Below, in pieces: positions 46,272 through 64,000 of a stretch of 64,000 nucleotides of DNA (the stretch's first letter is position 1; the number at the start of each line of letters is the position of its first letter). A program made the translations under genes and the position numbers. This stretch comes from Tropicimonas marinistellae (GTDB taxonomy: Bacteria; Pseudomonadota; Alphaproteobacteria; Rhodobacterales; Rhodobacteraceae). The notes under the pieces are model-generated. The model was not told the DNA's origin, did not search any database, and saw nothing but the letters and a program-made list of their open reading frames with translations. The stretch covers positions 1 to 64,000 of the forward strand of contig NZ_LNCI01000006.1 of NCBI RefSeq assembly GCF_001509585.1. The letters run 5' to 3'.

Positions 46272-46443
46272 GGGCGAAGACCGCTGCCTGCGCAAAGGCG
46301 CCATTCGCACGTCAGCCCATGGATGCGACTTCCTTGATCGTCCGGTCGATCCGCAGACTTCCCCGCCCACGATCGTCATCTTCGTCGCGCTCCGGTCACA
46401 TTTGTCCCGCCCCTGCGCAGCCAAACCTGGCGGGCTGGCGGCG

Positions 46444-48870
46444 TCAGCAGTGTAGCGGATGGTGCATACTGGCGACCTCGCCTCGGATTGCCGCCAGTTT
46501 CACGGGTTTGGTCATGTGGTCGTCCATGCCGCTATCCAGGCAGGCCCGGCGATCCTGCGGGGTGGAATGAGCGGTCAGGCCAATGATCCGGCAGCGAGCC
46601 GCGACGTCCGGCGCAGCGACCTCGATGGCGCGGATTCGCTGGGCCGCCTCCAGCCCGTTCATCACCGGCATGCTGATGTCCATGAAGACCAGGTCCGGGC
46701 GATATTCCTCGAACTGCTCGACAGCCTCGGCGCCATTCGCGGCCGTGACAAAGGAAACGTCCTGCTTCTTCAGGATCAACTCCAGCAGTTTGGAATTCGT
46801 CCGGTTGTCGTCGACCACGAGCACCATGCCGGGTGCGGCGGCGCTTTGCGGCGCGGTCCGGTCGTGCTTGCCCCGCCTACCCGGGCTGCTGTCCTTGGCC
46901 CGTGCCGGGCTCTGGATCAGGGCCTCGATCAGTTGGCTTGCAATGAGGGGTTTGAGCAGGCGGCCGCTTGCCATCCCGTCCGGCAAGGCGCCCGGACGGG
47001 CCAGCTGGCAAATCCGCTCGAAGACAATGACCCGCCGCCCCGCCGCTCCGGGCAAGGTGCCGATCTGTGTGCTGAGCGCCTGGCCGCCGATGTCCGGCAA
47101 TCTGTCGTCGACCAGTATCTGCGTGAACGGGGTGCATCGACGGTGCGCGACCGCCAGCAGTTTCAGGGCCATCTGGCCCGTCCGGCAGGGTGTGACCTGC
47201 AGGCCCACGGCTTCCAGCCGTTCGCGCACGCTGTCGCGCAACGTTGCATGTGAAGTGACCAGCAGTGCCCGCGCGCCCTTCAGCCCCGTCAGGCCGGGCG
47301 CGGACTCATCCTGTCCGTCTACAGCGATCAGCGGCACGGTGAAGGAAAACACCGAGCCCTTGCCGGGCTTCGAGCGAACGTCGATCCGCCCGCCCATGAG
47401 ACCGACGAACCCCTTGCTGATGGCCAGCCCCAGCCCGGTGCCTTCGTACTTGCGGCTGTAGGAACCGTCGATCTGGGTGAAACGGCCAAAAACAAGGTCG
47501 ATCTTGTTCTCGGGAATGCCGCAGCCGGTATCCTGCACGTCGATGCGCAGCAGCTTGCGCCTGTCTGCATCCCGGACCAGCCGGGCCCGGATCAGCACAT
47601 GGCCGTGATCGGTGAACTTGACCGCATTGCTGGCGAAGTTCATCACCACCTGCTTCATCCGGGCGAAATCGCCGTTCATGAAAACGGGAAGCCTGGGGTC
47701 GCAACGCGTGACCAGTTCCACGTCCTTTTGGGCGGCCTGCAGGGCAAGGATGCGCCCGGTATCCTCGACAAGATCGCTGACCCGGAACGGTTCGTTCCGG
47801 ATGGCCATGTGGCCGGCCTCGATCTTGGAGAAATCGAGGATGTCGTTGATGATATTGAGAAGGGACCGGCCCGACGAGGTGATTGTATCCAGCAGCCTGG
47901 CCTGGTGCTGGTCCAGCCGGGTTTCCGCCAGCAGCTCCGCCATGCCCAGCACACCGTTCATCGGAGTGCGGATCTCGTGGCTCATGCTGGCGAGGAATTC
48001 TGTCTTGGCGGCCTCGGCCGAGCGGGCCTGTTGCAGAGCCGTGGCAAGCTGTCCGTTCTTGGAGTTGAGGTTGCGGCTGAACTCCTCCAGCCGCTCCTGC
48101 GCATCCTCCAGCGCGTTCCAGCGCGCGCGGAGATTGCTGAGCATCGTGTTGAAGGATCTGGAGAGGCTCTCGACCTCGTCATTGGTCCGAATGTCGATGA
48201 ACTGGTCGAGGTCGCCGCTGGCAGCTTTCCGGGTGGCGCGGTTCAGCCGTTCGAGCGGGCTGGCAAGGCGTTTCGCGATCGCCATGCTCATGAGGATGCT
48301 GCCCGCCGTGAAGACCAGCCCGAACAGCGCGTTGCGAAACAGAACCACGGAGACACCGCTCCGGTACATCCGGGTTTCGAGCGTGTAGCGGATCGTGCCG
48401 TAATTCTGCAGTCCGTAAAGCGCGGGAACGGCAGCGTGAAGCAGGCCGCCGCCGGTCTGCAACTGGCGTGTCCGGGTGGCCTGCGCCAGCTCCACGAGCG
48501 GGTCGTCGACCACGGCCAGAAACAGGGATCCGCCCTCGGATTCGCTGGTGACAAGCAGCATGCCGTCGGGGTCGATGAACGACAGCGAATGCACATCCGG
48601 CTGGCGTGCCAGTTCCTCGAAGATGATGTCGAGCTCGGCCGGGCGATCCTCCAGCAGATAGGGAAGCGTGACCTCGCGGATGAGCGCGCCCAGGGAGTCG
48701 GTCTTCTCCGTGACGCGTTCGCGCACGAGCTGCAGCTGGGTCAGGGTATTGATCGCAATCAGGGTGACGACGATGGCCGCCGTCGTCATCCCGAAATAGA
48801 GCGAAATCCTTCGGCGGACGCCGCGGGTGGCCGCGCGCCGGAGTGCCCTGATGCGTTCGAGTCCCCGCAA
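46444..48870 (-). CDS. Hybrid sensor histidine kinase
   Basis: About 808 residues from a TTG at 48870; the exact start is uncertain, as the frame also runs back into the neighbour. Order: TM1, extracytoplasmic sensor, TM2, HAMP, HisKA (FLASMSHEIRTPMNG), HATPase (MNFASNAVKF; DTGCGIPE; GTGLGLAIS), a degenerate receiver (no acidic pair, but LVDDRLP kept), and a complete receiver (VVDDNRTN; FMDISMPVMNG). No Hpt domain or partner regulator is visible. It starts just after the PhnD-like gene, so the two are probably one operon. Confidence 0.92.
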   Translation of the reverse strand: MRGLERIRALRRAATRGVRRRISLYFGMTTAAIVVTLIAINTLTQLQLVRERVTEKTDSLGALIREVTLPYLLEDRPAELDIIFEELARQPDVHSLSFIDPDGMLLVTSESEGGSLFLAVVDDPLVELAQATRTRQLQTGGGLLHAAVPALYGLQNYGTIRYTLETRMYRSGVSVVLFRNALFGLVFTAGSILMSMAIAKRLASPLERLNRATRKAASGDLDQFIDIRTNDEVESLSRSFNTMLSNLRARWNALEDAQERLEEFSRNLNSKNGQLATALQQARSAEAAKTEFLASMSHEIRTPMNGVLGMAELLAETRLDQHQARLLDTITSSGRSLLNIINDILDFSKIEAGHMAIRNEPFRVSDLVEDTGRILALQAAQKDVELVTRCDPRLPVFMNGDFARMKQVVMNFASNAVKFTDHGHVLIRARLVRDADRRKLLRIDVQDTGCGIPENKIDLVFGRFTQIDGSYSRKYEGTGLGLAISKGFVGLMGGRIDVRSKPGKGSVFSFTVPLIAVDGQDESAPGLTGLKGARALLVTSHATLRDSVRERLEAVGLQVTPCRTGQMALKLLAVAHRRCTPFTQILVDDRLPDIGGQALSTQIGTLPGAAGRRVIVFERICQLARPGALPDGMASGRLLKPLIASQLIEALIQSPARAKDSSPGRRGKHDRTAPQSAAAPGMVLVVDDNRTNSKLLELILKKQDVSFVTAANGAEAVEQFEEYRPDLVFMDISMPVMNGLEAAQRIRAIEVAAPDVAARCRIIGLTAHSTPQDRRACLDSGMDDHMTKPVKLAAIRGEVASMHHPLHC

Positions 48871-48883
48871 GGCCGAGCCGGCG

Positions 48884-49774
48884 TCAATAGAGCGCCAGGA
48901 TCTCGAGCCGGTCGAGCAGCCCGTACATCGGAGCGAAGGTTGCATCGACGCCGTTCGGGAAGGCATCGAACTTCGTGGTCTTGTGGAATTTCTTCATGAC
49001 CTTCCGGCCCTCTTCGGTGGCCTCCATTCCGATCAGCACATCCTTGATGCGCCGGGACAGCTCCACCTCCAGACCGGCGCGTCGGACCACCACCTGGCGC
49101 GGCACGTCCATGCTTTTCTCGATCACCCGGAAACGGTCCGGCTGTGACTTGTCCAGCATCGCGAAGCCGCGGGGATCGGTTGCGGCAGCGTCGATCCAGC
49201 CCTTGGCGAGCCACAGGAGCGTGTTCTTGTCGTCCCCGGTGAACACATAGCCGACGGCATCGCCCTCGGGCCTGGCATGACGGCTCGCCAGTTCCTGCAA
49301 CGTCAGCCCGGCGCTGTCGATCAGTCCGACCGGCAACAGGAAACCGGAGGTGGAATCGGGCTCCTGAAAGCCGATCTTGCGGCCGGCGAGATCCCCGATC
49401 GTTTGCAGCGGGCTGTCCATCGGCACCACGATGACGGAATGATAGGTGCTCACCCCGCGTTTCCACCGGCGCAGCATCGGCACCGCGCCGGACTCCTGCG
49501 CCACCCTGGCCGCGATCAGCGGACTGTCGAAGTACAGATCGACACGGCCATCGCGCAGGGCCGCGGCCATATCGGTCGACGAGGGCAAGACAGAGATCTG
49601 GATATCGTCAACCCCGTCGGCGGCCAGTTCCTGTGCAAGGTAGAGTGCCAGCGGGGTGAAGCGATCCAGGTGTTTTCGGACATTGTCGTTCACGCTGCCG
49701 AGCACCAGTGTCTCCGCTCCGGCAGAGAGGCTGGACATCAGCAGGCAAAGGACTGCAACGAGAGCGCGGCACAT
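48884..49774 (-). CDS. PhnD-like periplasmic binding protein
   Basis: 296 residues. Signal peptide (MCRALVAVLCLLMSSLSAGA) and phosphonate/phosphite-binding family features (STDMAAALRDGRVDLYFDSP, LAGRKIGFQEPDSTSGFLLP). No permease or ATPase gene is next to it. Its partner is the hybrid kinase that follows, so it likely presents a ligand to the kinase sensor rather than serving transport. Confidence 0.85.
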   Translation of the reverse strand: MCRALVAVLCLLMSSLSAGAETLVLGSVNDNVRKHLDRFTPLALYLAQELAADGVDDIQISVLPSSTDMAAALRDGRVDLYFDSPLIAARVAQESGAVPMLRRWKRGVSTYHSVIVVPMDSPLQTIGDLAGRKIGFQEPDSTSGFLLPVGLIDSAGLTLQELASRHARPEGDAVGYVFTGDDKNTLLWLAKGWIDAAATDPRGFAMLDKSQPDRFRVIEKSMDVPRQVVVRRAGLEVELSRRIKDVLIGMEATEEGRKVMKKFHKTTKFDAFPNGVDATFAPMYGLLDRLEILALY

Positions 49775-49990
49775 AGGAATCTCCAGTTACCCAGGAAGCT
49801 TCCTGTGGCTATCGCCAACTGCTTAATTCCCGCTTAAATCCAAATGCATACCAGCCCATCGGGCCGTACTTTCGTGCCAACGCGTCGATGACGTGCGCCG
49901 CCCTGCCGTCGCCACGACAGGGGTGACAGCTTCCCCATCGGGCGCCGGTGCAGGTTGTCAGGCGCGATGGCGGCAGGGCACAATGACGAA

Positions 49991-50362
49991 ATGTCGAGAC
50001 AGGTATCGACGATCATTGCGGCCATTCTGCTGTCGCTGCCGGGTTCCGATGCGGCGGCTTCGACGATTGTGTGCACGCGTCCCGATGACCCGAACCACAC
50101 GTTCACGGTCGCCGGGGATCAAGGTGCCTACACCTGGAATGACCACGGGCTTGTGCGCTCCTGGGCTCTGAGCTGCAGAACACAACGAGGCGGTTCCACG
50201 TCATGTCACAGGTGGGAGCAAACCGGTGCGAACGGGCGGAGCGTGATCATTTTCAGGATGATGCCTGACGGAACTCTGATCGAAGCCGGGTCCTGGGCGT
50301 TGCTCGACACGAGCACGGTCAATGTCACGACCGGCTTCCAGTGCACGACTGGCGCCGAGTGA
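49991..50362 (+). CDS. Secreted hypothetical protein
   Basis: 123 residues from the ATG at 49991. Signal peptide with STIIAAILLSLPGSDAAAS. Four cysteines. No family recognised; alone between two minus-strand genes. Confidence 0.55.
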   Translation: MSRQVSTIIAAILLSLPGSDAAASTIVCTRPDDPNHTFTVAGDQGAYTWNDHGLVRSWALSCRTQRGGSTSCHRWEQTGANGRSVIIFRMMPDGTLIEAGSWALLDTSTVNVTTGFQCTTGAE

Positions 50363-50446
50363 CCTCTTTGCATTTCACCACTCAGTCGGAAGCCGCGCAT
50401 TCTGGACTTTGCGTCGTTTCCGGGCGACCTCGCACTGCAAGAATTC

Positions 50447-51244
50447 TCAGGGAGAATTGGGTACGCGCCCCTGCGTGGCGTTGATCGCGGCGGTATAGCT
50501 GACGGTGCCATCTGGCCCAGTTGCCAAGGTTTCCCTCAGACCTTCCTTAAGACGGCTTTGATCGCTCTCGGACAAGGATTTGACCACGTTCGCCACGGAA
50601 TTGGGAATGCCGGTACTGGAACTCCAGAAATCCTCGAAATCCGCGTAGATCAGCGGCACATCCATGCGCGTCGAGGAAATCTCCTCGAGGCCGAAGCTCT
50701 CCCACACCTGTTCCATGTAGTCCCGCCGGGCCTTGTCGGGTCCGGTGACCGGAGCCTCGATGCCAAGCCCACTCAGCGCGACCCTGATCGGCTCCATCGT
50801 GAAGCCGCCGCCTTCTATGTCCCAGATATAACTGGACAACGTTCCGCCGGGCCGGACGACCCTCACCATCTCCGATACGGCTTTCGGCGGGTCCGGCAGG
50901 AAGTTGATGACCAGCGCCATCACCGCCGCATCAAACTGCTGGTCCGCGAACGGCAAGCTTTGCGCGTCGCCGACAATCAGGTCGGTATCGTGCGCCTGCA
51001 ATCGTACCCGTGCGGTCTCTATCAGCCCGTCCGAGGGATCGATTCCGGTCACTTTGGCAGCGCCCGCCTGACTGAACAGCAATTCCGTGAAAGCCCCGTT
51101 GCCGCAGCCGACGTCCAACCAGTGCAAACCCCGTGCAGGCGCAAGGAAGTCGAGAAACAACTGCCCAGCGACTTGGCTCCATCGCCCCATCATTTTCTCG
51201 TATCCCCCACCATCAGTGAACTTCGGGGGGCTATGCTGCGGCAT
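50447..51244 (-). CDS. Class I SAM methyltransferase
   Basis: 265 residues from the ATG at 51244. Motif I LDVGCGNGAFTELL, acidic GIDPSDGLI, GDAQSLPFAD, and VRVVRPGGTLSSYIWD: the UbiE/Methyltransf_11 pattern. Substrate unknown. Confidence 0.9.
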   Translation of the reverse strand: MPQHSPPKFTDGGGYEKMMGRWSQVAGQLFLDFLAPARGLHWLDVGCGNGAFTELLFSQAGAAKVTGIDPSDGLIETARVRLQAHDTDLIVGDAQSLPFADQQFDAAVMALVINFLPDPPKAVSEMVRVVRPGGTLSSYIWDIEGGGFTMEPIRVALSGLGIEAPVTGPDKARRDYMEQVWESFGLEEISSTRMDVPLIYADFEDFWSSSTGIPNSVANVVKSLSESDQSRLKEGLRETLATGPDGTVSYTAAINATQGRVPNSP

Positions 51245-51948
51245 ATCCTGTTCCTCCACGCGCAGGCACTTCGACGGCTACAACGAAATCTACCGGAAAT
51301 CCCCCACACTTGAAACGACCTCAAGTGAATGACGAGATCTGCCCAAGGTGGGGCTCCGGACGACTGGGCCATTTCCTTCGATGCGTCCAAAGTCGGCATT
51401 GCCGCCGCACATCACCCGCGCCGGTCGCGACAGCGCACTCCTCGCCCCTGTGGGTCCGCTTTCTGCGCATGGCTTCCGACAGGGACGGATCAGCTATGAT
51501 CCGATAGGCGGACAAAGCGACCTTACCAGTTACGAATTTGGAGCCCGGTGTGCGCCGGCCCGTGGGGAAGCGCAGCGACAGCTGTCGTCTGCGGTCACTC
51601 TTATCCATATCCGACGAAGATCAAACGGTTGCGGGCGGGTAAAAAAGCGCCTGCCCACCGGGACGGGGTGGCCGAAAGGCCGGCGGTGGAGGCGGCCAGA
51701 CACGGGCCAAGGGAGGGGCATTGACCGAAATCATTGCCATGCAAAGCACAATGGGTTTCGCTTCTCCCAGGACAAAGCAATCGAAAACGAAGCCACCAAG
51801 GACGTTGCCTCGCCCCGGCAGAGAACAAATCATACGAAGTCGGACCCGGGCCAGTTGGGATGCCCGTGCCCGCATCCCCTTCCCCGGCACGTGTCGTTGG
51901 TGAATGCCGAAGCAAGGCAATGTACAATTTGAACCCGAAGGAGCGGAC
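51245..51948. other. Long gap, only a repeat copy
   Basis: No convincing gene in either strand. It contains repeat copy A (51392-51468). The rest appears to be non-coding or decayed sequence. Confidence 0.5.
51392..51468 (+). repeat. Dispersed intergenic repeat, copy A
   Basis: One of five near-full copies with core CGCGCCGGTCGCGAC and a second block TCTGCGC. Here it runs GTCGGCATTGCC ... CCCGCGCCGGTCGCGACAGC ... CTCGCCCCTG ... TTCTGCGC. Confidence 0.8.
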
Positions 51949-52662
51949 ATGACATTCAAGGATCACCTCTCACCCAGCATCGGTGGAGCGCTGCTCGGCA
52001 TTGGGACCGGGGCGCTGCTGACCGTCGGCGCCGCCCTTGCCGAGCAGGCTCTGGAGCCGGTCGAACTGAGCGACATGCGCGGGATGCGGTATTGCGAGGT
52101 CCTCCTGATCTACGAGGAGGACGTCGTCATCTACAATACATCCGCCTCCGACGGCTGCCCCGAGGACAGGTGGCAGGCGATGGATACCGCGGCGCTTGCG
52201 TCCGAGAACGGCGCCAAGGCCGCGCAACTCAATGGCCCGAAGTTCTGGGCGACGGATGGCCAGACCTTGTTGTTCGGGGACACGAAGAGCTTTGGCGGGA
52301 TCGAGGCGCGCTACGCCGCCACGCTGCCGATCTCGGCACTTGGCACAGGCGAAGGCGCCGACCCCTATGTCGGCTTCACGAGTTCGAAGAAACAGACCAT
52401 GGTCTTCAACGCGGACCGCCCGATCTACGAACTGATCGACCCGGATGGAAATGCCTATATCCTCAACGCCTACGGGCCCAAGGTGAAGGATGGCGATCCG
52501 GCGAACCTCGCCGACCAGCTGTCGCCAGCGGAAGGCTGGAGCTTCCGCATCTCGACACCAACCGAGGATCTCGTGATCGCGGCGCCTGAAGATGAACCGA
52601 CCCACATGGTCGGCGACGACCTGCGCCAGTACTACACGCGATACGACGCCGGGACGAACTGA
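51949..52662 (+). CDS. Exported hypothetical protein
   Basis: 237 residues from the ATG at 51949 (AAGGAG site). An N-terminal hydrophobic segment (IGGALLGIGTGALLTVGAALA) serves as signal or anchor. The mature part has a Cys pair (near 50 and 70) and mixed alpha/beta pattern. No family recognised. Confidence 0.7.
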   Translation: MTFKDHLSPSIGGALLGIGTGALLTVGAALAEQALEPVELSDMRGMRYCEVLLIYEEDVVIYNTSASDGCPEDRWQAMDTAALASENGAKAAQLNGPKFWATDGQTLLFGDTKSFGGIEARYAATLPISALGTGEGADPYVGFTSSKKQTMVFNADRPIYELIDPDGNAYILNAYGPKVKDGDPANLADQLSPAEGWSFRISTPTEDLVIAAPEDEPTHMVGDDLRQYYTRYDAGTN

Positions 52663-52772
52663 GACTACCCGGTTCGACAGGCCCGTTCTCGCCCACGGGG
52701 GACCCCCGGGGGGTGAGCCGACCGGGGCGGCACGCGCGCCGCCTTGGACCAAACTGCAAAGGGAGGAAACAC

Positions 52773-53252
52773 GTGGAACGGCAGGAATTCGTGGGAGAGG
52801 AGTTCAACGCAGACGCTCGGGAAGCGCTCGCGGCAATCCCGGACGACCAGCCCTTCGGGGTGATCAACTTGCTGCGCTACAAGACATGGGCGGAGTACCC
52901 GCCCGGCGTGGTATCGGAGCGGCTCACCGGCCAACAGGCCTACGAGAAATACGCGGAACTCTCCATACCCTTCGTGAACAAGGTCGGCGGCGTTCCGATG
53001 TGGCGCGGCGATTTCGCGGTCACGCTGATCGGGCCAGAGCCCGTTCCTTGGGACGAAATCGTCATCATGCAATACCCTGCCCGCAGCGCGTTCGAGACCA
53101 TGCTCGACGATCCGGAATACCGGAAGACGCTTGTGCACCGCACGGCAGCTGTTCGCGACTCGCGGCTGGTCGGTGCGACGTCCGCGCAGGGTATCGGCCC
53201 GATGAAATGGAAGCTTTTCAACCTTACCCGGCGGCTCGGCCTCTCGGATTAG
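52773..53252 (+). CDS. DUF1330-like protein
   Basis: 159 residues from the GTG at 52773 (GGGAGGAAAC upstream). VINLLRYK...GQQAYEKYAE, IVIMQYPARSAFETMLDDPEYRK and a conserved His/Arg follow the DUF1330 ferredoxin-like pattern. Function of the family is not known. Confidence 0.78.
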   Translation: MERQEFVGEEFNADAREALAAIPDDQPFGVINLLRYKTWAEYPPGVVSERLTGQQAYEKYAELSIPFVNKVGGVPMWRGDFAVTLIGPEPVPWDEIVIMQYPARSAFETMLDDPEYRKTLVHRTAAVRDSRLVGATSAQGIGPMKWKLFNLTRRLGLSD

Positions 53253-53389
53253 ACATAGAGGCGACAGATCCCGCCGCGCCGCCCCAGGTCGCCCGCTTCC
53301 CAAACGGCGGGCAATACCGTTTCGAATGCCCCCTGTGGAGACATGCACGCAACCCGGCTCATTGGATCAGGAAGCAGACCCTGAGATGG

Positions 53390-53464
53390 GGCCGCCGCAC
53401 AACGCCCGCGCCGGTCGCGACAGCGCACTTCTCGCCCCTACCGGGCCGGAATCTGCGCTTTGCA
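53390..53464 (+). repeat. Dispersed intergenic repeat, copy B
   Basis: Same core as copy A (GCCCGCGCCGGTCGCGACAG at 53404-53423), with CTCGCCCCTA and ATCTGCGCTTTGCAG. The gap 53253-53702 holds nothing else I can support. Confidence 0.8.
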
Positions 53465-53702
53465 GATATTGGACCGGTTTGAGCAACCTCCGCTTTGCCG
53501 AACGCCATCATTGTTGATGTGTCTCCCGGCGTACGCCGAGGACGTTGACGACAGAATTTGACCGATGGGAGAGGTGTGTCAGGATGACGATAATGCTGCC
53601 AGCCACGGTTCCAAAGTGGTGCCTAGTCGGTTGCCATCGCGGGGATTTGGAAATCATCTGGGGACTATCGGTTATAACACCAAACTGCACATTGAGGATA
53701 TT

Positions 53703-54188
53703 ATGAAGTGCTTTTCGCTAGCTTTACTTTGCGTTTTTGCATTCTGTGACCATGCTCAAGCAGAACAGCTTTCAGAAGACCTTCGCTATATCAGCTCAGT
53801 TGACAGCGTTGTCGAAGACACAAAAACTGGTTTGATGTGGACACAGAAAGACAGTTATGCCGATTTAGGTCACTCTTTAAACTGGAACGAATCCAGGGAT
53901 TACGTTGATAGCCTCTCGACGGGCGGCCACAGTGACTGGCGTTTGCCTACAGTGAACGAGTTGAAAACCATCTACGAGCCGTCAAAATCGAACACGGATC
54001 TTTATGGAGGAAAATTAGGACTTGATCCGGTTTTTGCGAAAAGCGGTTCCTATAATTTCTGGACATCGGAAACAGCTGGAGACTGCTGTGCTGTTACCAT
54101 GACCTTCGACTACGGTCATGTGACAGAAAATCACCGAGATTTCAGCGGTAGTTTCGGAGTTCGTGCCGTAAGGAAAATGGATGATTAA
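53703..54188 (+). CDS. DUF1566 (Lcl C-terminal-like) secreted protein
   Basis: 161 residues. Signal peptide (MKCFSLALLCVFAFCDHAQA). DTKTGLMWTQKD, LNWNESRDYVDSL, GHSDWRLPTVNEL and the YNFWTSE end are the DUF1566 pattern, seen in lectin- or adhesin-like exported proteins. The gene is markedly AT-richer than its neighbours and lies between two repeat copies, suggesting transfer. Confidence 0.82.
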   Translation: MKCFSLALLCVFAFCDHAQAEQLSEDLRYISSVDSVVEDTKTGLMWTQKDSYADLGHSLNWNESRDYVDSLSTGGHSDWRLPTVNELKTIYEPSKSNTDLYGGKLGLDPVFAKSGSYNFWTSETAGDCCAVTMTFDYGHVTENHRDFSGSFGVRAVRKMDD

Positions 54189-54291
54189 TTCATCATGGCA
54201 TTTTTCAGACGGTCGGTACACTTGCTTCAAACGTGTCTTTGGTCCCGCTGACACACCGGACATCCGATCAAAACCGTCAGATGCCAGCCAA

Positions 54292-54374
54292 GTCGGCACT
54301 GCTGACGATCACGCCCGCGCCGGTCGCGACAGCGCATTCTTCGACGCTACGGGCGAGGTATCTGCGCTTTGCAG
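54292..54374 (+). repeat. Dispersed intergenic repeat, copy C
   Basis: GTCGGCACTGCTGACGATCA, then the common core, then GCTACGGG and TATCTGCGCTTTGCAG. Located after the DUF1566 gene. Confidence 0.8.
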
Positions 54375-54461
54375 CCGTTGCGCTGCGTGGGCCGTTTTGC
54401 GGGCGCAACCATCGGCCGGAGGTTGCGTTGCATCATTCCTGCGCATTCCGGGCAGCTCAGC

Positions 54462-55490
54462 CTACCGCGCTCCCCATGTATCGGAGAGCCGGTAACCTTC
54501 CGGCCACGGATCGGATGGATCAAGCATGTGCTGATGGATGCCAGTGATCCAGCCGCGTCCAGAAATCTCGGGACGAATGGCAGGGCGCCTGCCGACGGTC
54601 GTTTCGGCGAGGATGCCCCCTGAGAAGGTCGATCCGATGAGCGAGCGCACAGTCAGGCGGTCGCCGACCGCCATCAGTCCCCGGGCGTGCAGGACGGCCA
54701 TGCGTGCCGACAGTGCCGTGCCTGTGGGCGAACGGTCGACCTTGCCGGGCTGGATGGCGACAGCGGCCCCGCTCTCAAGGCCGTCGCCCCCCTCGACCAA
54801 TGGCCCCGCGAAAAGGCAGAACGAGATATGCTGCCAGTCCGGGTTTTCGGGGTGCGCGAAGCCGAGCTGGTCGTTGGCTGCGTTGGTGATCTTCACCCCG
54901 AGTCTTGCAATGTCGTGTGCCTCGCTCTCGGTGAGCGCAAAGCCGAGCGCTGCAGCGTCGACGATGACGAAACTGTCGCCGCCGTAGGCGGTGTCGATGG
55001 CGAGGGTACCGAGGCCGTCGACCTCAAGCGTCCGGTCCAGATCGGCCGCGAAGGACGGCACGTTCTGCACATGGATGCGTTCGGCCTTGCCGTCGCGGCA
55101 CTCGGCCCGCACCCGCACCAACCCGCCGGGGGCTTCGAGTACCATGTGGGTTTCCGGCTCCTGCATGGACACCAGCCCCGCATCGAGCAGGACGGTGGAG
55201 ACGCAGATCGAATTCGAGCCCGACATGGGCGGTGTGTCCTCGGGCTCCATGATGATCCATGCAGCCTGCGCCTCAGGGTGCTTTGGCGGGACAAGCAGGT
55301 TCACATGACGAAAGACACCGCCACGCGGCTCGTTGAGAACGAAGTTGCGCAAGGTCTGGTCGCGGGCGATCCAACGGCTCTGCTCCCAGATCGTGTCACC
55401 CGGTGGTGGCAGGACACCGCCTACAATGACGTCGCCCACTTCCCCTTCTGCGTGAGCAGAGATCACGTGAATTGTCTTTTTGGAGCGCAT
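54462..55490 (-). CDS. Proline racemase family enzyme, Ser/Thr active site
   Basis: 342 residues. Overall fold motifs match proline racemase/hydroxyproline epimerase/dehydratase. The two catalytic positions that are usually Cys are Ser90 (MSGSNSIC) and Thr256 ([10 protein letters not shown]). Cys-Thr pairs are known in trans-3-hydroxyproline dehydratases and Ser-Cys pairs in some epimerases; Ser-Thr is uncommon to my knowledge. Substrate uncertain. The gene stands alone. Confidence 0.85.
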
Positions 55491-55706
55491 TGCAGGTGTC
55501 CTACATCAATCGTGGCGTGCCGAAGAGTGTGAGGCAAAAGTCGAGCTGCGCAAGGCACAGTATAAGATCTCGGTCCTCTTGGGCGGCGGCAGCGTCCGCT
55601 GACCGGTCCTCAGCGTGAATCGCCGCGATCGTCTGGCCATTAGAAATCTCCGTGTGAGCGAGCGAACGTCGCTGGGAATGCTGCCGTCGCAGAGAAGGTC
55701 CGCACC

Positions 55707-55787
55707 GTCGGCACTGCTGCCGATCACGCCCGCGCCGGTCGCGACGGCGCACGCCTCGCCCCTATGGGTTCGGTATCTGCGCTTTGC
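55707..55787 (+). repeat. Dispersed intergenic repeat, copy D
   Basis: GTCGGCACTGCTGCCGATCA, common core, CTCGCCCCTATGGG, TATCTGCGCTTTGCTG. Copies D and E also share about 45 bases upstream (..ATGCTGC..CGCAGAGAA..). The gap 55491-56153 otherwise holds no supported gene. Confidence 0.8.
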
Positions 55788-56153
55788 TGCCAGTCACGAT
55801 ACATGAGCGCTTCGCTAGAGCAGCATCTTCCCTTGAAACGGAAGCCGCCATACGTGCCCGGAGCAGCGTAGGGCCGGGACGAGCCCAGTTTGACTAATGC
55901 TGCGCGCTTTTAGAACGGGTGCGAACCGCACATTGCTGCCGTTGGTCATGGCAAGGACGGCCCTAAGCCGACCTTTCGCGTCTGGACAGTGCGAACCGAA
56001 AGCGGTTCTCTACAAGTTGAATATTTGCTAGGTCAGGTGCAGTGCACTGCCCACGGACGACGCTTGCATTGAATTCGGTTAAACGAAGTTCGTTTGGTTG
56101 GCGACTTTGCGAACGTTTTTCAAGAAGGTTTATTTTTGGCAGTTGCCCACTCG

Positions 56154-56549
56154 TCAGATACCCGCCAAATTTAGCTCTTCAGTTCTTATCCGATACCCAA
56201 GGATACCGCATGCTAGAATTCCGAGGTTTCCAACGAAGTCCAGAAGCATCCAATATGTAAATAGTTCTACCACGAAAACGAAATAAAAGTTGAACACGAA
56301 GAAAGGCACTGATCCCACAAGACCGAAGACCAGAAATGTCATCGGCGTGAACCTCGACAGTGCGATGACCAGTCCGGCTAGGATTGCTTGAGCGCCGAAA
56401 CATCCCAATAAAAGGGCCGATGTGGCGGACAGATGCTGATATTCTGGCGTCAGGACAAGCCGTTCCACCATTCGCGGTGCAACGAGGCACCATCCTCCCA
56501 GTCCAAGAAAAATTGCAGCTAGTCCCAACTGAATATTTTGTGACTTCAT
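56154..56549 (-). CDS. Four-helix membrane protein
   Basis: 131 residues with four hydrophobic segments (about 7-25, 43-64, 68-95, 97-118). Acidic and basic ends are short. No family recognised; similar small proteins are often labelled DUF-type inner membrane proteins. AT-richer than average here. Confidence 0.68.
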   Translation of the reverse strand: MKSQNIQLGLAAIFLGLGGWCLVAPRMVERLVLTPEYQHLSATSALLLGCFGAQAILAGLVIALSRFTPMTFLVFGLVGSVPFFVFNFYFVFVVELFTYWMLLDFVGNLGILACGILGYRIRTEELNLAGI

Positions 56550-56630
56550 GGTGCTACTCCTTGAGAGACTTGCATTGGGGGCATAGCTACCAAAGCAATA
56601 GTTCGCATGCCCGCGAGGTGCTGACCATTT

Positions 56631-57581
56631 TCACCGATATAAATTATTGTTCAGGTAGCGTAGGCCGGTGTCCACAATCACGGTAACAACAGACTTTCCG
56701 GGCCCCAGTTCTTTGGCTTTCTGCAACGCCGCCCATACATTCGCGCCCGACGTCACGCCTCCCAGCAAACCCTCTTGACGCGCGAGCGACTGCGCGCCCC
56801 AAAAGGCGTCTTCGTCTTTGACCGGTATCACCGCGTCGATCAGATCACGGCGCAGAATCTTGGGCACAAAAGATAGACCGATCCCTTCCAGTTTATGACT
56901 GCCACTCGTGTCGCCACCAGAAACATTGCGAACATGGTAAGGCTCGACGGCAACAATTTCGGTCCCGGGATTGCGCGCCTTCAAAACCTCGGCATTACCG
57001 GAGATACAACCGCCACCGCCTGCAGCCATGACAAAGGCATCAACTTCGCCATCTATTTGTCCCAGAATTTCCTGCGCCATCCGGTGATATCCCATTTTGT
57101 TGTCCAAGTTGTTCACTTGATCCGGCCAGAACGTCCCGGGCTCGCACGCCAGTTCTTTGGCCCGAGCGATCATCCGATTGATCACATCGGCCGTCAGTAC
57201 GCCGCCTTCGGCGTGGACGATCTCGACCTCGGCACCGTAGGCGCGCATGGTTTGTAACTTTTCTTCGGAAAATCCGTTGGATGATACAAAGTGTGCCCGA
57301 TAGCCGCGGGTGGCACATACCATAGCCAGACTGCTTCCGGTGCTGCCGCCGGTGTATTCGACAATTCGCCCTCCGGGCTTTAGATCGCCGCGCCTCTCGG
57401 CCCCCTCGATCATCGACAGTGCCATGCGATCCTTCATGCTGCCGGTCGGATTAGCGCCTTCCCATTTCACGAAAACATCAGCGCAGTCTGGCCCGGCTAT
57501 GCGAGCCAACCGTGTGAGGGGCGTATTGCCTACTGTGATCATGACGACGGACTTTCGCGGAGCAAATCTACTCACTTCCAT
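56631..57581 (-). CDS. Cysteine synthase-like PLP enzyme
   Basis: 316 residues. PLP Lys50 in NPTGSMKDRMAL, phosphate loop EYTGGSTGSSLAM, and AAGGGGCISG. It belongs to the fold-type II CysK/CBS-like family. The internal ATG at 57542 is an alternative start. It is divergent from an HxlR regulator over an 87-base gap with paired palindromes, so probably controlled by it. True substrate not clear; I avoid calling it cysK. Confidence 0.85.
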   Translation of the reverse strand: MEVSRFAPRKSVVMITVGNTPLTRLARIAGPDCADVFVKWEGANPTGSMKDRMALSMIEGAERRGDLKPGGRIVEYTGGSTGSSLAMVCATRGYRAHFVSSNGFSEEKLQTMRAYGAEVEIVHAEGGVLTADVINRMIARAKELACEPGTFWPDQVNNLDNKMGYHRMAQEILGQIDGEVDAFVMAAGGGGCISGNAEVLKARNPGTEIVAVEPYHVRNVSGGDTSGSHKLEGIGLSFVPKILRRDLIDAVIPVKDEDAFWGAQSLARQEGLLGGVTSGANVWAALQKAKELGPGKSVVTVIVDTGLRYLNNNLYR

Positions 57582-57586
57582 AAATT

Positions 57587-57627
57587 AAGTGACTTCCGAG
57601 GTCAAACTTCCATTTCGTAAGTTACTG
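57587..57627. promoter_or_regulatory. Paired AAGTNACT palindromes, HxlR operator
   Basis: AAGTGACTT at 57587-57595 and AAGTTACTG at 57619-57627, 32 bases apart (three helical turns), between the divergent PLP-enzyme and HxlR genes. HxlR proteins bind as dimers to such sites. Confidence 0.55.
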
Positions 57628-57668
57628 GTTTAAAAAATCTGGCATGTGCACTAAGTTCGGAGACTTGG

Positions 57669-58046
57669 ATGACCAAGCCGGAGCATGAATTTCGGTCCCG
57701 TTGCTCGATTGCGCGCAGCTTGGAAATCCTTGGAGACAAGTGGACACTTCTGGTAGTCCGCGACCTGATGTGGCACGACAAACATACGTTTCAAGAATTG
57801 CAGAACAGCGAGGAACACCTCCCGCCGAACCTGCTGTCCCAGCGTTTGAAGCGGCTGATGGAGTGGGGCCTTGTCGAGCGGGAAGCCTATCAGGACAGAC
57901 CTGTTCGTTATCGCTATGAATTGACCGATCAGGGTCGTGAGCTCGAACCAATCCTCCTGCATATCATGGCCTGGGGACACGCTCATCTGAACGGCGGACT
58001 GTATGATCCGGTTCGGGCGCAAACGGTTGCAAAAGCGTCCCGCTGA
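57669..58046 (+). CDS. HxlR-family transcription regulator
   Basis: 125 residues. CSIARSLEILGDKWTLLVVRDLM, FQELQNSEEHLPPNLLSQRLKRL and PVRYRYELTDQGREL are the HxlR winged-helix pattern; the conserved Cys15 can sense oxidants or electrophiles in relatives. Confidence 0.92.
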   Translation: MTKPEHEFRSRCSIARSLEILGDKWTLLVVRDLMWHDKHTFQELQNSEEHLPPNLLSQRLKRLMEWGLVEREAYQDRPVRYRYELTDQGRELEPILLHIMAWGHAHLNGGLYDPVRAQTVAKASR

Positions 58047-58275
58047 GGTGCGGTCGGCATGGGGTTTGGGCACACCGAAGTTTTCGGCCCTTGGTGTTTT
58101 TCGCTGCGGTCGCAAGGTGCTGAAACCTGCCGTTGGGGCTCGTGCAGCGAAAACCTGCTCCGTCCGCTGACTTGCCGTCGATGTGAGCCACCGAGAACGT
58201 CCGGTCCGCTCCCGCATCATCGATGGTCTGGTGAGCGCAACGTTCGATGCTGCGACCGCAGAGAATGACCGCAAG

Positions 58276-58354
58276 GTCGGCAATGCTGCCGATCACGCCC
58301 GCGCCGGTCGCGACAACGAACTCCCCGAGCCTCCGGGCCGGCGTACTGCGCCAT
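58276..58354 (+). repeat. Dispersed intergenic repeat, copy E
   Basis: GTCGGCAATGCTGCCGATCA, common core, then a more diverged second half. It lies in the long gap 58047-58904, in which I find no supported gene. Confidence 0.75.
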
Positions 58355-58904
58355 GCCGGGTGTTTGGTCCGTTGCCATCATGATCAGGTGTGCGGAGCCT
58401 CCCGGAATCCGAGGGACACTCCTCCTGCACGGCCCTCCCGATGCCCGTTGGCGAGCGCGGCATCGATACCTCCTGCATGACTCAAAAAGACCCGACACAT
58501 CTTCGGCAGCCATGGGCGCTGCCAGCGGGCAACGGGACACTGGAATTGCTCCGAGAGACCGCCTGTCGCACGAAATACCTGTACGGCTCCGAGGGGCGGC
58601 CAACCGGGGATGCCGGGGCGCGCTTGTACGCGATTGGCTGCCCGCGCAAGGCCACCGTCTGAGCGGTTTCTGACCACGGCTGCCCTGGCAGGGGTACAGG
58701 CGCTCCCGGTCCTCCAATGGTCCGTGAACCGGGCCCGGCGGCGCCGCTTGATTGATGTCAACGACGTTGGGGAAGGCACCTGCGATACTGTCATCGAGCG
58801 TCGCGCGGCGGAGGGCGTGTGCTTAAATTCAATGACGATTGGCGTTCCTGCACCCGCGGCGTGTTCCTGAACTCGGAGCAATTGGTCGAATTGGGAGGGA
58901 AGTC

Positions 58905-59315
58905 ATGAGATATTTGCTATTTGCACTGGCGGCATTGGCCGCGACGGCGGCCACGTCCGGTCTGGCCCAATCCGTTGGTGAGCGCGAGTACATGAACAGC
59001 TGCGCCGCCTGCCACGGGCCGGGCGGCACGGGCGATGGCCCCATGGTCGGATACCTGACCGGATCGATCCCCGATCTCACGCAGCTTTCCGCGGCAAACG
59101 GCGGGGTGTTTCCGGTTACGAAGGTATACGCAACCATCGATGGGACGATGGCCGCGGGCCCGCACGGAACAAGTGAAATGCCGGTCTGGGGCAACCGCTA
59201 CCAACTGATGGGCGAGAAGGCCGCGAACCCTGACTTTGCCGCAGACGAAGCCGAGGTTTTCGTGAAGTTCCGGATCCTGGCGCTGACCGAGTTTCTGGCG
59301 GGCCTTCAGGAGTAG
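58905..59315 (+). CDS. Small c-type cytochrome
   Basis: 136 residues from the ATG at 58905 (GGGAGGGA site). Signal peptide, heme site CAACH (near residue 29) and probable Met ligand in TSEMPVWGNR. A single-heme periplasmic electron carrier. No oxidase genes nearby. Confidence 0.92.
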   Translation: MRYLLFALAALAATAATSGLAQSVGEREYMNSCAACHGPGGTGDGPMVGYLTGSIPDLTQLSAANGGVFPVTKVYATIDGTMAAGPHGTSEMPVWGNRYQLMGEKAANPDFAADEAEVFVKFRILALTEFLAGLQE

Positions 59316-59571
59316 CGGCCGCGTCCCCCGGGGTGGGTTGTCAGTACCGCCTGCCACGGCAACCGCGATGACCGCGGTCGCCGCGACCGCATGCTGCGCG
59401 CCACCGGCGCGGCGACGGCGGAGCGGTGGCTCACCCCTTTCGTGAAGCTCGCGCAACGAGGCGTGGCGATGGAGATCGCGCCGGAAAGCCACGTCCAAGG
59501 GTCGCACATGAAGACGCCGCCAGTGGCATTTCGTCGGGCGCCTCAGTTGACCGCACGCAGGAGGGACGACC

Positions 59572-60276
59572 GTGGCCCCGCACAGGAGGAGAGTTGCAAT
59601 CGGGGCGTTTGCCACGCTGCTTTGCGCCCTGGGCGGGGTCGCGGCAGGCGCCGGGGCCTCTGCCTGCGATACCCCGCTGGTTACGGTGGAGACAGCAGAC
59701 GGAGACCTCCACCGCCGTCTCTGCGAAATCGTGGCATCCGCCCTCCCGCGGCTCGAAGAATGCCAGCTCAAACTGGTCTCGGCCGTGTCGATCGGCTTTG
59801 CCGACAGCTTGCACCTTGGGTCGCCCGACCAGATCTGTTTCGGGAACTATCATCAGCGAACGGACCGGATCGAACTCCTGAAACCACCGGCATTCGAACG
59901 TTTTCACAACCGTTCGGAGGTTTGGGCCGCGATCCCGGTGACAGAGCATTTCGACTCCATCGTCGTGCATGAACTCACCCACGCCCTCGTGGACCAGACG
60001 GCGCCCGCGACACAATCTTGCACGGCGGACCAGGAGTACATCGCATACGCGATGCAGGTCGCGAGCCTCTCGGACTCCTCCAGGACCACCCTGATAAACA
60101 GGGTCGGGGTGTCGACACCAACCTCGGATGACGAAATCAACTCCGTGATCCTCGGCCTTTCGCCAGCCGCATTCGCCGTGAATTCCTGGCTGCACTTTTC
60201 GCAACCGGAGAACGGCTGTGACGTCGTACGAAAGATCATTCGCGGCGAAACGACCTTCCTGTTGTTGCCGGAGTGA
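59572..60276 (+). CDS. Exported zincin-like protein
   Basis: 234 residues from the GTG at 59572 (CAGGAGGG). Signal peptide to about residue 30. HELTH (VVHELTHALVD, about residues 133-143) is the HExxH zinc site of metalloproteases; a downstream Glu in QEYIAYAMQ may be a third ligand. Cysteines are likely paired. Activity not proven. Confidence 0.75.
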   Translation: MAPHRRRVAIGAFATLLCALGGVAAGAGASACDTPLVTVETADGDLHRRLCEIVASALPRLEECQLKLVSAVSIGFADSLHLGSPDQICFGNYHQRTDRIELLKPPAFERFHNRSEVWAAIPVTEHFDSIVVHELTHALVDQTAPATQSCTADQEYIAYAMQVASLSDSSRTTLINRVGVSTPTSDDEINSVILGLSPAAFAVNSWLHFSQPENGCDVVRKIIRGETTFLLLPE

Positions 60277-60412
60277 AATCTACGCCATCGCACGACGCAT
60301 AGGCCTCGGCTCAGTCCGAGACGCCGGCCCCCAAAGGCGTCATGGCGTCTATTCGACCGATTGCCCCGGACGTCGGCTAAACCGCCGCATGACGCCCCGC
60401 CTGTCTCAACCG

Positions 60413-60460
60413 CGCAATTTCCGACGCTACGGGTCCGCGAGCTGCGCTTTGCGTCCGTTG
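60413..60460 (+). repeat. Dispersed intergenic repeat, partial copy F
   Basis: Only the second half of the repeat: CGACGCTACGGG and GCTGCGCTTTGC, close to copy C. The gap 60277-60899 otherwise shows no supported gene. Confidence 0.6.
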
Positions 60461-60899
60461 AGTCGACTTCGGGCAAGTCCGCTGAAGAGATCATCCGAAA
60501 ATTGGTCTGGGAACGTTCGACAGTCGCGACCGGCCCATAGCTGCCTTGGAACCTGGCGAGCAACTCCGCGCTGCAGCTTTCGCATTCCTGCCGTTCGCGC
60601 GAGGTGCAGCATGTCGGCCGGACGCTATGACAGGGAAGCGGGATGAACCCGAGTTGCCCTAAAAATAAGGTACGATCGGTACCAGCCCAAAGCTCGCTGC
60701 TCTGATGCGGGATACCTCAGCTACAGATGACCTTGTGATGGGCCAACAGTCACTTCTCGTTAGGTCCGCTGCCTCGTCAAGTCATTTTCTAAAAACACAA
60801 TCTCAGCTTGAACCTGCCGCACTTTGCTACCAAGGTTACCGCCGAGCGCAAAAGATACGAGATTTCTTCATGTTGGACCGAGCCTCTACAGAAAACAAA

Positions 60900-62252
60900 A
60901 TGCCTTCATTATTCATTACCGGCTTTTTTGTTGAAAAACTCTTCGGTCTTTATACATATGATCAAAAGATTAAAGCGTTGTCAGACGAAAGGTCGGAGCG
61001 CTTGATACTAATGTATGGGGACAATGGCTCCGGAAAGACAACGATTGTTAGATTGGTGTACCATTTGTTGTCACGATCCTCGAGTCGAGGCCATCGAACC
61101 TTTGTAGCTAGAACCCAGTTTGAAAAATTCGGCTTGTATTTCTCCGACGGAAGAACTCTGACGGTAAAAAAGCGAGAAGATACAGGTGTTGGAAGCTATG
61201 TGTTGTCAATTGGTCGCGAGGACGAAATCCTTCGAGAGGTTGAAGTTGGAACAACCTGGGATGACAATGGAGTCGCCGTTAAAGAAAGAGATGTAGACGA
61301 AAAAGAACTGCAAGATTTTTTCGATGACCTGTTTCCAGAGGCTCTTGAATGCTATCTGCTATCAGATAACAGAGAGTTTAGTAGCGATCAGCTGCATGCG
61401 GATAATACCCGCCGAGAGAGGTTGATGCGAATTAGGAGTCATGAGTATTTCATAGATCCCGATAATTTCACTAAGTCACGATCCTCGGAAATCGATGAGG
61501 CAACCCGGCAATTGCGCCAGTCCGTAGAAAGGGCGGAGAATTGGATAAAAACCATAACGCTTGAAGCACGTAGCGCAAACGACGCGTCGGTATCAGATAT
61601 ATACACAGACTTGATAAAACGAATTGGAACTGATGGCCCCAATGATGATAATAAGCCAACTTCGTTGAAAGAACATCTTTTGGACCGAATTCGTTCTCTT
61701 GCTCGCTCTGCAAAAAAACTCTCCACACTTGGCCTGGCCAGCGACGTCCCCGAAGCAGCACTTATCGACGCAATCAGCACCGCCAGCGACGAGAGTATAT
61801 CTACAATAACGCAGATTCTCGAGCCATACTTCGATAGCGTTCAGGCACGCATAGATGGCCTAGGAGAGATGGCGAGCCGTCTTAACACATTTGTTTCGAC
61901 AATAAACCAGTTCTACAACAACAAGATTGTCAAAATTGATGCTGTGACTGGGATTCAGATTACGACAAGAGACGGGAGTCGCATTCCTGTAGAGGTACTT
62001 TCTTCTGGTGAAAAGCACCTGTTGATGTTGATGTGCAATATCTTAGTTGGAACTAGCCAAAAAAGCTTGTTCCTAGTTGATGAGCCGGAACTTTCCCTCA
62101 ATGTTAAGTGGCAAAGAACTCTGGTCGATGCCCTGTTGGATTTGTCTTCAGGCAGCGCCATTCAATTTCTTATGGCAACGCACTCGATAGAACTCTTAGC
62201 AAAACACAAACACTCAACTCTTCGCCTAAAACACTTCGATTTGAGCGCCTGA
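60900..62252 (+). CDS. ariA: AriA-like ABC ATPase of PARIS
   Basis: 450 residues from the ATG at 60900; an ATG at 60870 is possible. Walker A GDNGSGKT (40-47), helical insert, signature LSSGEKHLL, Walker B LFLVDEPELSLN and switch His in ATHSIEL: an SMC/ABC-type defence ATPase. Its stop overlaps the start of a DUF4435-type gene (TGATG). This pair defines PARIS, where AriA senses phage anti-restriction proteins and releases AriB. Clearly AT-richer than flanking DNA, as expected for an acquired island. Confidence 0.82.
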   Translation: MPSLFITGFFVEKLFGLYTYDQKIKALSDERSERLILMYGDNGSGKTTIVRLVYHLLSRSSSRGHRTFVARTQFEKFGLYFSDGRTLTVKKREDTGVGSYVLSIGREDEILREVEVGTTWDDNGVAVKERDVDEKELQDFFDDLFPEALECYLLSDNREFSSDQLHADNTRRERLMRIRSHEYFIDPDNFTKSRSSEIDEATRQLRQSVERAENWIKTITLEARSANDASVSDIYTDLIKRIGTDGPNDDNKPTSLKEHLLDRIRSLARSAKKLSTLGLASDVPEAALIDAISTASDESISTITQILEPYFDSVQARIDGLGEMASRLNTFVSTINQFYNNKIVKIDAVTGIQITTRDGSRIPVEVLSSGEKHLLMLMCNILVGTSQKSLFLVDEPELSLNVKWQRTLVDALLDLSSGSAIQFLMATHSIELLAKHKHSTLRLKHFDLSA

Positions 62253-63133
62253 TGTATCAAAGAGAGATTGCGGAACTGATTGTGTTGTACGAGTTCGAAC
62301 CGGAACTCAGAAGCCTCTGGGTCGAAGGGCCATCTGACCGAGCCTTCTGGGAATGGTATTTGTCTAATAAGGATCTAACTGGTGTCGAAGTTAACTCAAT
62401 TGATCAAGTAAACGTTCCTGACGATGTTTTAAGAAGATACGGCTTGACGGCAAGCAACAAGAACCGTGCCATTGCTACGGCTCTTGAATTGGAGGAAGGC
62501 CTTAGTGATGCTGACGATCACGCGAGTTTTCTATTTGTAGTGGACTTGGACTTTGATCATTTTTCCGGAAGGCAAATCGAAGGGAAGTTCATAGTATACA
62601 CGGATTTCACGGCAGTGGAGATGTACTTTTTTGATCCGGAGGTCGTGGAAAAAATCATAAAACTTGCGACCAAGAAACCTGACAGATCTGCCCAAGAGCT
62701 AATGCAAGGGCTATCGGAAGTTGGGAGCCAATTGTTTTGGATCCGCACTGCAAATGAAATTTTGGGTTGGGGCATGACGCTACCAAATCCAGATAAACTG
62801 CTGTTGGAGGAAAATAACTCTATTAGCTTTGATGTTGAAACATATTCTCACCGGTTGCTTCAATCTAACGGTAGGTCCAAAGACTCTGTCGAGTTTGAAG
62901 ATATGTTGGCGTCGCTAAGAGAACATTGCGTCGATGACGTTCGGCTTAAGATCCGGGGGCATGACTTTGTAGATCTTTTGGCTTGGACCCTTAGAAAGGA
63001 AATTAAGTCAAAGGTAGCTGGAAAAAACAGCGAGATTGTCGCAACGCTGCTGTTAATGACGGCCGATGTCGGCGTTTTGGCTACGTACCCCCTTTTTGAA
63101 AGAGTGGAAGCGGAGCTGTTCGCGGCTTCTTAG
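62252..63133 (+). CDS. ariB: AriB-like DUF4435/TOPRIM protein of PARIS
   Basis: 293 residues. The N-terminal WVEGPSDRAFWEWYL has the TOPRIM/DUF4435 glutamate (E25, close to the E26 known to be needed in the E. coli protein). FLFVVDLDFDHF supplies the Asp pair. In PARIS the freed AriB cuts tRNA and shuts down translation. Coupled to ariA by TGATG. Confidence 0.82.
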   Translation: MYQREIAELIVLYEFEPELRSLWVEGPSDRAFWEWYLSNKDLTGVEVNSIDQVNVPDDVLRRYGLTASNKNRAIATALELEEGLSDADDHASFLFVVDLDFDHFSGRQIEGKFIVYTDFTAVEMYFFDPEVVEKIIKLATKKPDRSAQELMQGLSEVGSQLFWIRTANEILGWGMTLPNPDKLLLEENNSISFDVETYSHRLLQSNGRSKDSVEFEDMLASLREHCVDDVRLKIRGHDFVDLLAWTLRKEIKSKVAGKNSEIVATLLLMTADVGVLATYPLFERVEAELFAAS

Positions 63134-63587
63134 ATTTTGAACGGCCTGATGTCGAGTTTAACCTCAGGCAGATTCACTGTCCGCTTTTTTCTTTTGTGGA
63201 TGAGCTAGCTCGCGACCGCAGCGAACTCCCGCTCCCCACCCTTCCTACGGCATGCTGCAATTGACATGGACGGGGGCTTTCGGACGCGGAACCGTCGCCC
63301 GAGCATTTTCAGCAGAGGGCCTCGACGTCCGCAAATCTGCCGATGCCCCGCCTCGCCGCATTGCGCCAAATGGGCTGTTCGCCGCCAATCCCCGCGATGA
63401 CTACTAACGGCAGGGATCACGTCGCCGTCTCGACCGATGGCGTGGGGGGGGTTGAGCCACGGCGGCGCCGGGCATCCGTCCGGCCGTGCGCTCCGGACCC
63501 TTAACGAAGCGTGAATCCGTGCCCGTAACCCATTGAAATCTCTTGGGCGCCCCCCTGTCTCACGCGTGAGACATCTCCGCCGGGCGG
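63134..63587. other. Gap after the defence island
   Basis: No supported gene. A weak hairpin (CCTGA...TCAGG, 63146-63169) follows ariB. GC rises sharply again beyond about 63200, marking the island's right edge. Confidence 0.4.
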
Positions 63588-64000
63588 TCACGCCCCCCGC
63601 AGCACCGCGCCGGGATTCATGATCCCCGCCGGATCGAGGGCCGCCTTGATCGCCCGCATCGCCGCCAGTTTCGCCGGGTCCCCGTAGCGCTCCAGATCCC
63701 CGACCTTCAGCCGCCCGATCCCATGCTCCGCGCTCACCGAGCCGTCGAATTCATGCACCAGATCGTGAATCGCCCGCTTCACCGCCCCGCGCTCAGCCTC
63801 GAATTCCGCCGCGCGCCGCCCCGCCGGCGGGAAGACATTATAATGCAGGTTTCCGTCGCCCAGATGGCCGAAGCAGTTGATCCGCATCGCGCCGAAACCG
63901 GCGATCACCTCGGCGCCCTTCTCGATGAAGTCCGGCATGGCCGAGATCGGTACCGAGATATCGTGAGACGAAACCGCCCCGATCCGCCGGTTCGCCTCCG
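63588..64000 (-). CDS. FAD-linked oxidase, C-terminal part
   Basis: The frame stays open to the window end; start outside. HLGDGNLHYNVF, SAEHGIGRLK and LDPAGIMNPG are the C-terminal marks of the GlcD/D-lactate dehydrogenase (FAD-oxidase_C) family. Oxidises a 2-hydroxy acid; which one is not decided by this part. Confidence 0.92.
   Translation of the reverse strand, partial: EANRRIGAVSSHDISVPISAMPDFIEKGAEVIAGFGAMRINCFGHLGDGNLHYNVFPPAGRRAAEFEAERGAVKRAIHDLVHEFDGSVSAEHGIGRLKVGDLERYGDPAKLAAMRAIKAALDPAGIMNPGAVLRGA

Follow-up and report, generated by a model that had tools for sequence, protein, structure and literature searches.

Gene pair and composition

Close to the right end of the window, by which we mean the whole stretch of 64,000 nucleotides that was analyzed, two genes follow each other on the forward strand. 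The first (60900-62252) encodes an AriA-like ABC ATPase, and the second (62252-63133) an AriB-like DUF4435/TOPRIM putative nuclease of 293 aa. In the sequence and its translation, the TGA stop codon of the ATPase (62250-62252) shares one base with the ATG of its partner (62252), which gives the string TGATG. The first-pass annotation had described this arrangement, an ABC-type ATPase and a DUF4435/TOPRIM partner overlapped stop to start, and both frames are indeed there. Its suggestion of an alphaproteobacterial host is plausible. The ATPase has two possible in-frame starts, the ATG at 60900 (450 aa) and an alternative ATG at 60870 (460 aa). We favor the former because it fits the N-termini of the relatives in an 8-row alignment of the ATPase.

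The GC content of the pair is 45.1%, against 63.0% for the 64-kb window. Elsewhere in the window, 5,847 overlapping stretches of 2,234 bp have a mean of 63.8% (sd 3.3) and a minimum of 53.6%. At third codon positions, the values are 0.45 for the ATPase and 0.47 for the TOPRIM ORF, both counted from the first possible start, compared with a range of 0.47-0.85 among the remaining ORFs listed. The numbers of matches to promoters (4, with 2.8 expected from shuffling) and to terminators (5, with 3.5 expected) are close to the shuffle expectation, and no promoter stands out. A search of positions 56000-64000 with Rfam returned nothing at the gathering score.

The ATPase is closest to AriA

The two best PADLOC families for the ATPase are both AriA (1.9e-25 and 8.6e-23). 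Its Pfam matches are AAA_21 (75.2 bits) and AAA_15 (57.9 bits), and a phmmer search of the PDB with this protein alone retrieves AriA at 3.1e-14. The motifs of an ABC-type ATPase are found in order along the forward strand. The Walker A motif GDNGSGKT (61017-61040) has residues N52, G53, G55, and K56 invariant in alignments of 8 and 17 rows. All five residues of the ABC signature LSSGE (61998-62012) are invariant in 8 rows, and its second serine varies in 17 rows. The Walker B motif DEPE (62079-62090) and the H-loop THS (62178-62186) are invariant in both alignments.

The AlphaFold model of the single chain has a mean pLDDT of 71.4 and a pTM of 0.69, and is weak in parts, with pLDDT below 50 at residues 1-11, 167-204, 255-263, and 457-460. 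A Foldseek search with this model among 350,542 PDB chains gave 145 matches at E<=0.001, the first 15 of which are all chains of PARIS entries, with AriA best at 1.2e-18.

The partner is an AriB-like TOPRIM protein

For the second protein, AriB is the sole PADLOC family matched (2.9e-12), and DUF4435 is the only Pfam family matched (36.2 bits, cut-off 27). The catalytic glutamate of the TOPRIM domain, E25 (62324-62326, forward strand), is invariant in alignments of 8 and 16 rows and corresponds to E26 of the E. coli AriB. The acidic motif DLDFD (62543-62557, forward strand) contributes D98, D100, and D102, and a further conserved glutamate, E123 (62618-62620, forward strand), is again invariant in 8 and 16 rows and shares its column with the glutamate of SLENYFF in the PDB AriB. 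In the 8-row alignment the invariant residues are E25, D29, D98, D100, D102, E123, and G236; among these, E25, D98, E123, and G236 remain invariant in 16 rows, where D100 is nearly so.

AriB was not found in the PDB by phmmer with the TOPRIM protein alone, nor by the profile made from the 8-row alignment (A1). A 16-row profile, in which the protein itself is included, matched AriB chains at 1.2e-8 and 7.8e-8, and its alignment lays E25 onto E26. Since the single protein and profile A1 both miss AriB, the sequence link to the solved structure goes through intermediates. According to an excerpt of PMC12409363, the change E26A in AriB abolishes tRNA cleavage.

The AlphaFold model of this chain has a mean pLDDT of 80.1 and a pTM of 0.76. 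Two AriB chains (7.1e-8 and 5.4e-7) are its sole Foldseek matches at E<=0.001 among the 350,542 PDB chains, and the match that follows them has an E value of 0.1. Foldseek TM-scores are moderate, at 0.64 and 0.56, with about 0.6 for the TOPRIM protein against AriB. As judged from the models, both predicted folds match the solved AriA and AriB best.

The pair lies at the end of a lineage-specific segment

Two conserved genes delimit the region in which the pair is found. The left edge is apt, encoding an adenine phosphoribosyltransferase (44446-44985, forward strand), which scores 273.7 bits with NCBIfam NF002634 (cut-off 170) when scanned from one codon further upstream, and which has a DNA match in 9 of 9 genomes of the genus, own genome included. 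The right edge is the 3' part of a glcD-like gene for an FAD-linked oxidase (63588-64000, reverse strand), with 161.9 bits for Pfam FAD-oxidase_C. This gene extends past the end of the window, and its NCBIfam glcD score of 223.8 bits is below the cut-off of 567.9. Here, 18.6 kb separate the two genes (44985-63588). Their matches are 12-244 bp apart in six of the eight genus mates (G001, G002, G003, G004, G007, and G008). Of the other two, G006 carries different genes over 8.3 kb at this place, and G005 is rearranged, with the two genes separated by 1.2 kb and oriented differently to each other.

When positions 56000-64000 were compared with 11 related genomes, including 8 of the genus, the pair itself (60900-63133) had no match. 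The strongest match in each of the 11 genomes was the glcD end; weaker matches were scattered over a cytochrome c gene, a DUF6639 gene, and repeats, mostly on other contigs. In six relatives, five of them genus mates and one another member of the family, the alignment starts at 63500-63598 and runs rightwards. The spacing between apt and glcD and the matches missing in the genus mates thus make the pair the terminal part of a segment specific to this lineage. It had been suggested beforehand to look for absence at the same site in close relatives, and the segment is missing there in genus mates. The interval between apt and glcD looks like a place where genes have been gained repeatedly.

Ten other ORFs of the segment were scanned. 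They encode a histidine kinase, a phosphonate-binding protein, a methyltransferase, an Lcl_C protein, a proline racemase, a PLP enzyme, an HxlR regulator, a cytochrome c, a DUF6639 protein, and one protein without family. No integrase or transposase family was detected among these ten proteins, and PADLOC revealed no further convincing defense genes among them. The PADLOC matches to SduA and DndD for the histidine kinase, and to mad2 (1.1e-20) for the methyltransferase, are better explained by the generic domains identified with Pfam. Judged on the ten proteins scanned, the segment is not a defense island. The first-pass annotation had placed the PARIS locus in an AT-rich island. The low GC content holds for the pair itself and not for the whole 18.6-kb segment, and the idea of a stand-alone island has to be abandoned: the pair is the right end of a segment of mixed, mostly metabolic and regulatory genes.

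The intergenic repeats reported around the pair were recovered. A family of intergenic repeats of 66-110 bp spans 51364-60460 and includes six 66-bp cores within 9 kb (51416-60460); the final copy, at 60395-60460, lies just upstream of the pair. A search of the whole genome with this copy at E<=0.001 returned two other places, both in the window; as these are fewer than the six copies in the window, the search is not exhaustive. Downstream of the pair, a dispersed intergenic repeat (63496-63575) has 15 other places in the genome at 72-85% identity. The genome search with one flanking repeat did not return the other, and since their genome copies do not match each other, the flanking repeats are no evident ends of one element. 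We considered whether the pair was brought by a mobile element and rejected this, given the absence of integrases and transposases among the ten proteins scanned and of evident ends in the repeats. As a side observation, another low-GC gene of the segment (53565-54188, 46% GC), which encodes the Lcl_C-domain protein, is flanked left and right by copies of the 66-bp repeat.

Relatives are distant and often carry the same pairing

The relatives first aligned share 15-28% identity with the proteins of the window (8-row alignments of the ATPase and of the TOPRIM protein). The most similar of the seven comes from a genome of the same class (G073, L017), where overlapping ATPase and DUF4435 genes lie in the same order as in the window, with 28% identity for the ATPase and 25% for the DUF4435 protein. 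Searches for the TOPRIM protein gave no match either in a 100-genome set of relatives (99 besides its own genome) or in 384 other genomes of the class, two sets that overlap, and the eight genus mates have no match to it at E<=0.001. The AriB family model identified 7 genomes besides that of the window among 385, L017 being one of the seven, and several of these matches fall within single long ORFs. By sequence comparison, putative AriB-type genes occur in the class and the lineage of the window is isolated among the genomes compared.

With the single TOPRIM protein as query, no relatives were found in genome contigs, plasmids, phages, or viral contigs. The ATPase alone had no match in viral contigs and matched 39 plasmid records. 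In the best 5 of these 39 records, a DUF4435-type gene follows the ATPase in 5 of 5 cases (three of these partners are annotated as DUF4435 and two as hypothetical). Scans with the ATPase alignment identified at least 8 loci in genomes and at least 29 in viral contigs, i.e., at least 37 in total. Among the matches listed, a DUF4435-type gene lies directly downstream in 19 of the 37 (weakest E value 6.6e-4), and about 470 bp downstream of the ATPase in one more (L080). The 17 others have no adjacent DUF4435-type partner among the matches listed; one of them (L071) has a DUF4435-type match at 9.8e-4, over 2 kb away. Two features of this comparison define its reading: the partner was sought with the profile of the 8-row TOPRIM alignment, which includes the protein of the window, and the relatives first aligned had been chosen for pairing, whereas nothing but the ATPase was used to find the 37 loci.

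Assignment to PARIS and competing explanations

The pair is very probably a complete, very divergent two-gene PARIS system. The founding detection rule, as worded in the portion of PMC9122126 that we consulted, calls for AAA_15 with at least 32 bits or AAA_21 with at least 27 bits beside DUF4435 with at least 27 bits; the values here are 57.9, 75.2, and 36.2, respectively. The assignment to AriA and AriB had been proposed from motifs, together with a profile search and a check of the DUF4435/TOPRIM fold, and it fared well. Walker A, LSSGE, DEPE, THS, and the TOPRIM residues E25, D98, D100, D102, and E123 are all there, so that the predicted ATPase motifs and TOPRIM catalytic residues are intact; the AriA (1.9e-25) and AriB (2.9e-12) profiles of PADLOC both match; and the fold of the second protein is backed by Pfam DUF4435 (36.2 bits) and by Foldseek, with nothing else than AriB at E<=0.001.

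The solved reference is the E. coli AriA-AriB (PDB 8ux9 and 8v45-8v49). Its ATPase is likewise an ABC ATPase with LSSGE, DEPE, and THS, its AriB is of the DUF4435/TOPRIM type too and has its catalytic glutamate in the equivalent position, and the folds of both proteins are shared. The cassette of an ATPase gene and a DUF4435 gene is common to both systems, as far as the excerpt of PMC9122126 describes it. Differences lie in the identity, which is 14-20% over the structural alignments, and in the setting, since the pair of the window occupies the apt/glcD site whereas that of E. coli is placed by the same excerpt in a P4-like satellite.

Other systems couple an ABC ATPase head to a nuclease as this pair does, namely Septu and retron PtuA, OLD, and Gabija GajA. 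PtuA works with PtuB, an HNH nuclease, and OLD and GajA carry the ATPase and the TOPRIM domain in one chain. A PtuA ATPase of the Septu or retron type, acting with an effector, could account for the PtuA families that rank third and fourth in PADLOC after AriA (PtuA 2.2e-18), for the retron-complex chains that come after AriA in Foldseek (the first, at 4.3e-11, follows the 15 chains of PARIS entries), and for the top NCBIfam row of the ATPase, which is PtuA at 40.7 bits, far under its cut-off of 500. NCBIfam gave no row at cut-off and no AriA or AriB row (for the ATPase, among the best 25 of 79 rows). Yet AriA is the better match in PADLOC, in the sequence search of the PDB, and in the fold search; the partner is a DUF4435/TOPRIM protein with the AriB fold instead of an HNH nuclease; and there is no reverse transcriptase family among the ten segment proteins scanned. 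We regard this explanation as hardly credible. It is also very improbable that the pair is a decayed remnant without function: the surrounding stretch is rich in repeats and the TOPRIM protein is unmatched in close relatives, but neither frame is truncated or interrupted, the two still overlap, and no catalytic residue is missing.

A closer competitor is a PARIS-like pair of equal architecture whose nuclease cuts DNA instead of tRNA and answers to another trigger. Such a pair would still be PARIS by sequence and fold, so this explanation overlaps with the main one and their probabilities do not sum to one. OLD and Gabija GajA are introduced as DNA-cutting TOPRIM proteins in an excerpt of PMC12409363. 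The identity of just 15-28% to the relatives aligned is in line with a change of substrate. So is the acidic motif, which reads DLDFD here and DRE in the PDB AriB, the second acid being D100 where AriB has E, from which it follows that the active site is not identical to that of AriB. Against it, AriB is the sole fold match at E<=0.001, the protein matches no PADLOC family but AriB and no Pfam family but DUF4435, and the ATPase and TOPRIM domains are on separate chains, in two frames with a stop-start overlap, unlike the single chain of OLD and Gabija. We hold DNA cutting to be unlikely.

Predicted mechanism, trigger, and tRNA targets

In the E. coli system, a homohexamer of AriA holds up to three AriB (PMC11455837, a commentary). 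Upon encountering the phage proteins Ocr or Arn, AriA lets go of AriB, which dimerizes and cuts tRNA-Lys (PMC11455837). If the PARIS pair of the window works in the same way, its AriA would assemble as an oligomeric sensor and sequester the TOPRIM nuclease AriB. A phage protein, probably an acidic DNA mimic or another anti-defense protein, would bind AriA; the AriB thus freed or activated would dimerize and cut host tRNAs in the anticodon stem, translation would stop, and the infection would be aborted. We infer the oligomer, the class of trigger, the tRNA target, and abortive infection by analogy with E. coli, and we consider the tRNA step likely.

The E. coli AriB cuts tRNAs at the 40|41 junction. 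Its cut motif, U36AAUC|A41, is present in 4 of 30 distinct host tRNAs examined (30 of 38 matches); the tRNAs with UAAUCA at 36-41 are tRNA-Lys(UUU), tRNA-Thr(UGU), tRNA-Asn(GUU), and tRNA-Arg(UCU). This comparison of predicted tRNA sequences shows that the substrate motif of AriB is available in the host, which speaks to availability and not to use.

The type I restriction family HSDR_N has no match in the host genome; of 14 control genomes, 9 have one. Hence, if the trigger is an anti-restriction protein, it would not be tied to the protection of an HSDR_N type I system in this host, and the reasoning behind the Ocr trigger, in which PARIS stands guard over restriction, would lack such a partner. 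One possibility, which we put forward tentatively and hold to be somewhat doubtful, is that this is a lineage of PARIS whose sensor answers to something other than a mimic of type I restriction and whose nuclease has a shifted set of tRNAs, one that includes, e.g., tRNA-Arg(UCU). If true, this would bring to light phage triggers of a new class.

In the literature found, the triggers and tRNA targets of PARIS come from the E. coli system. Whether the list of targets is conserved across PARIS systems is named as interesting to learn by Belukhina et al. in an excerpt of their article (PMC12409363). This kind of system is already known, and the locus offers a modest test of how far its triggers and tRNA targets vary. 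As a probably complete member of PARIS, far from that of E. coli, in a host where tRNA-Lys(UUU), tRNA-Thr(UGU), and tRNA-Asn(GUU) carry the cut motif, it would make a clean test case. As a minor observation, the window itself encodes a tRNA-Arg(UCU), at 32955-33031 on the reverse strand, which has the U36AAUC|A41 motif as in the known AriB targets.
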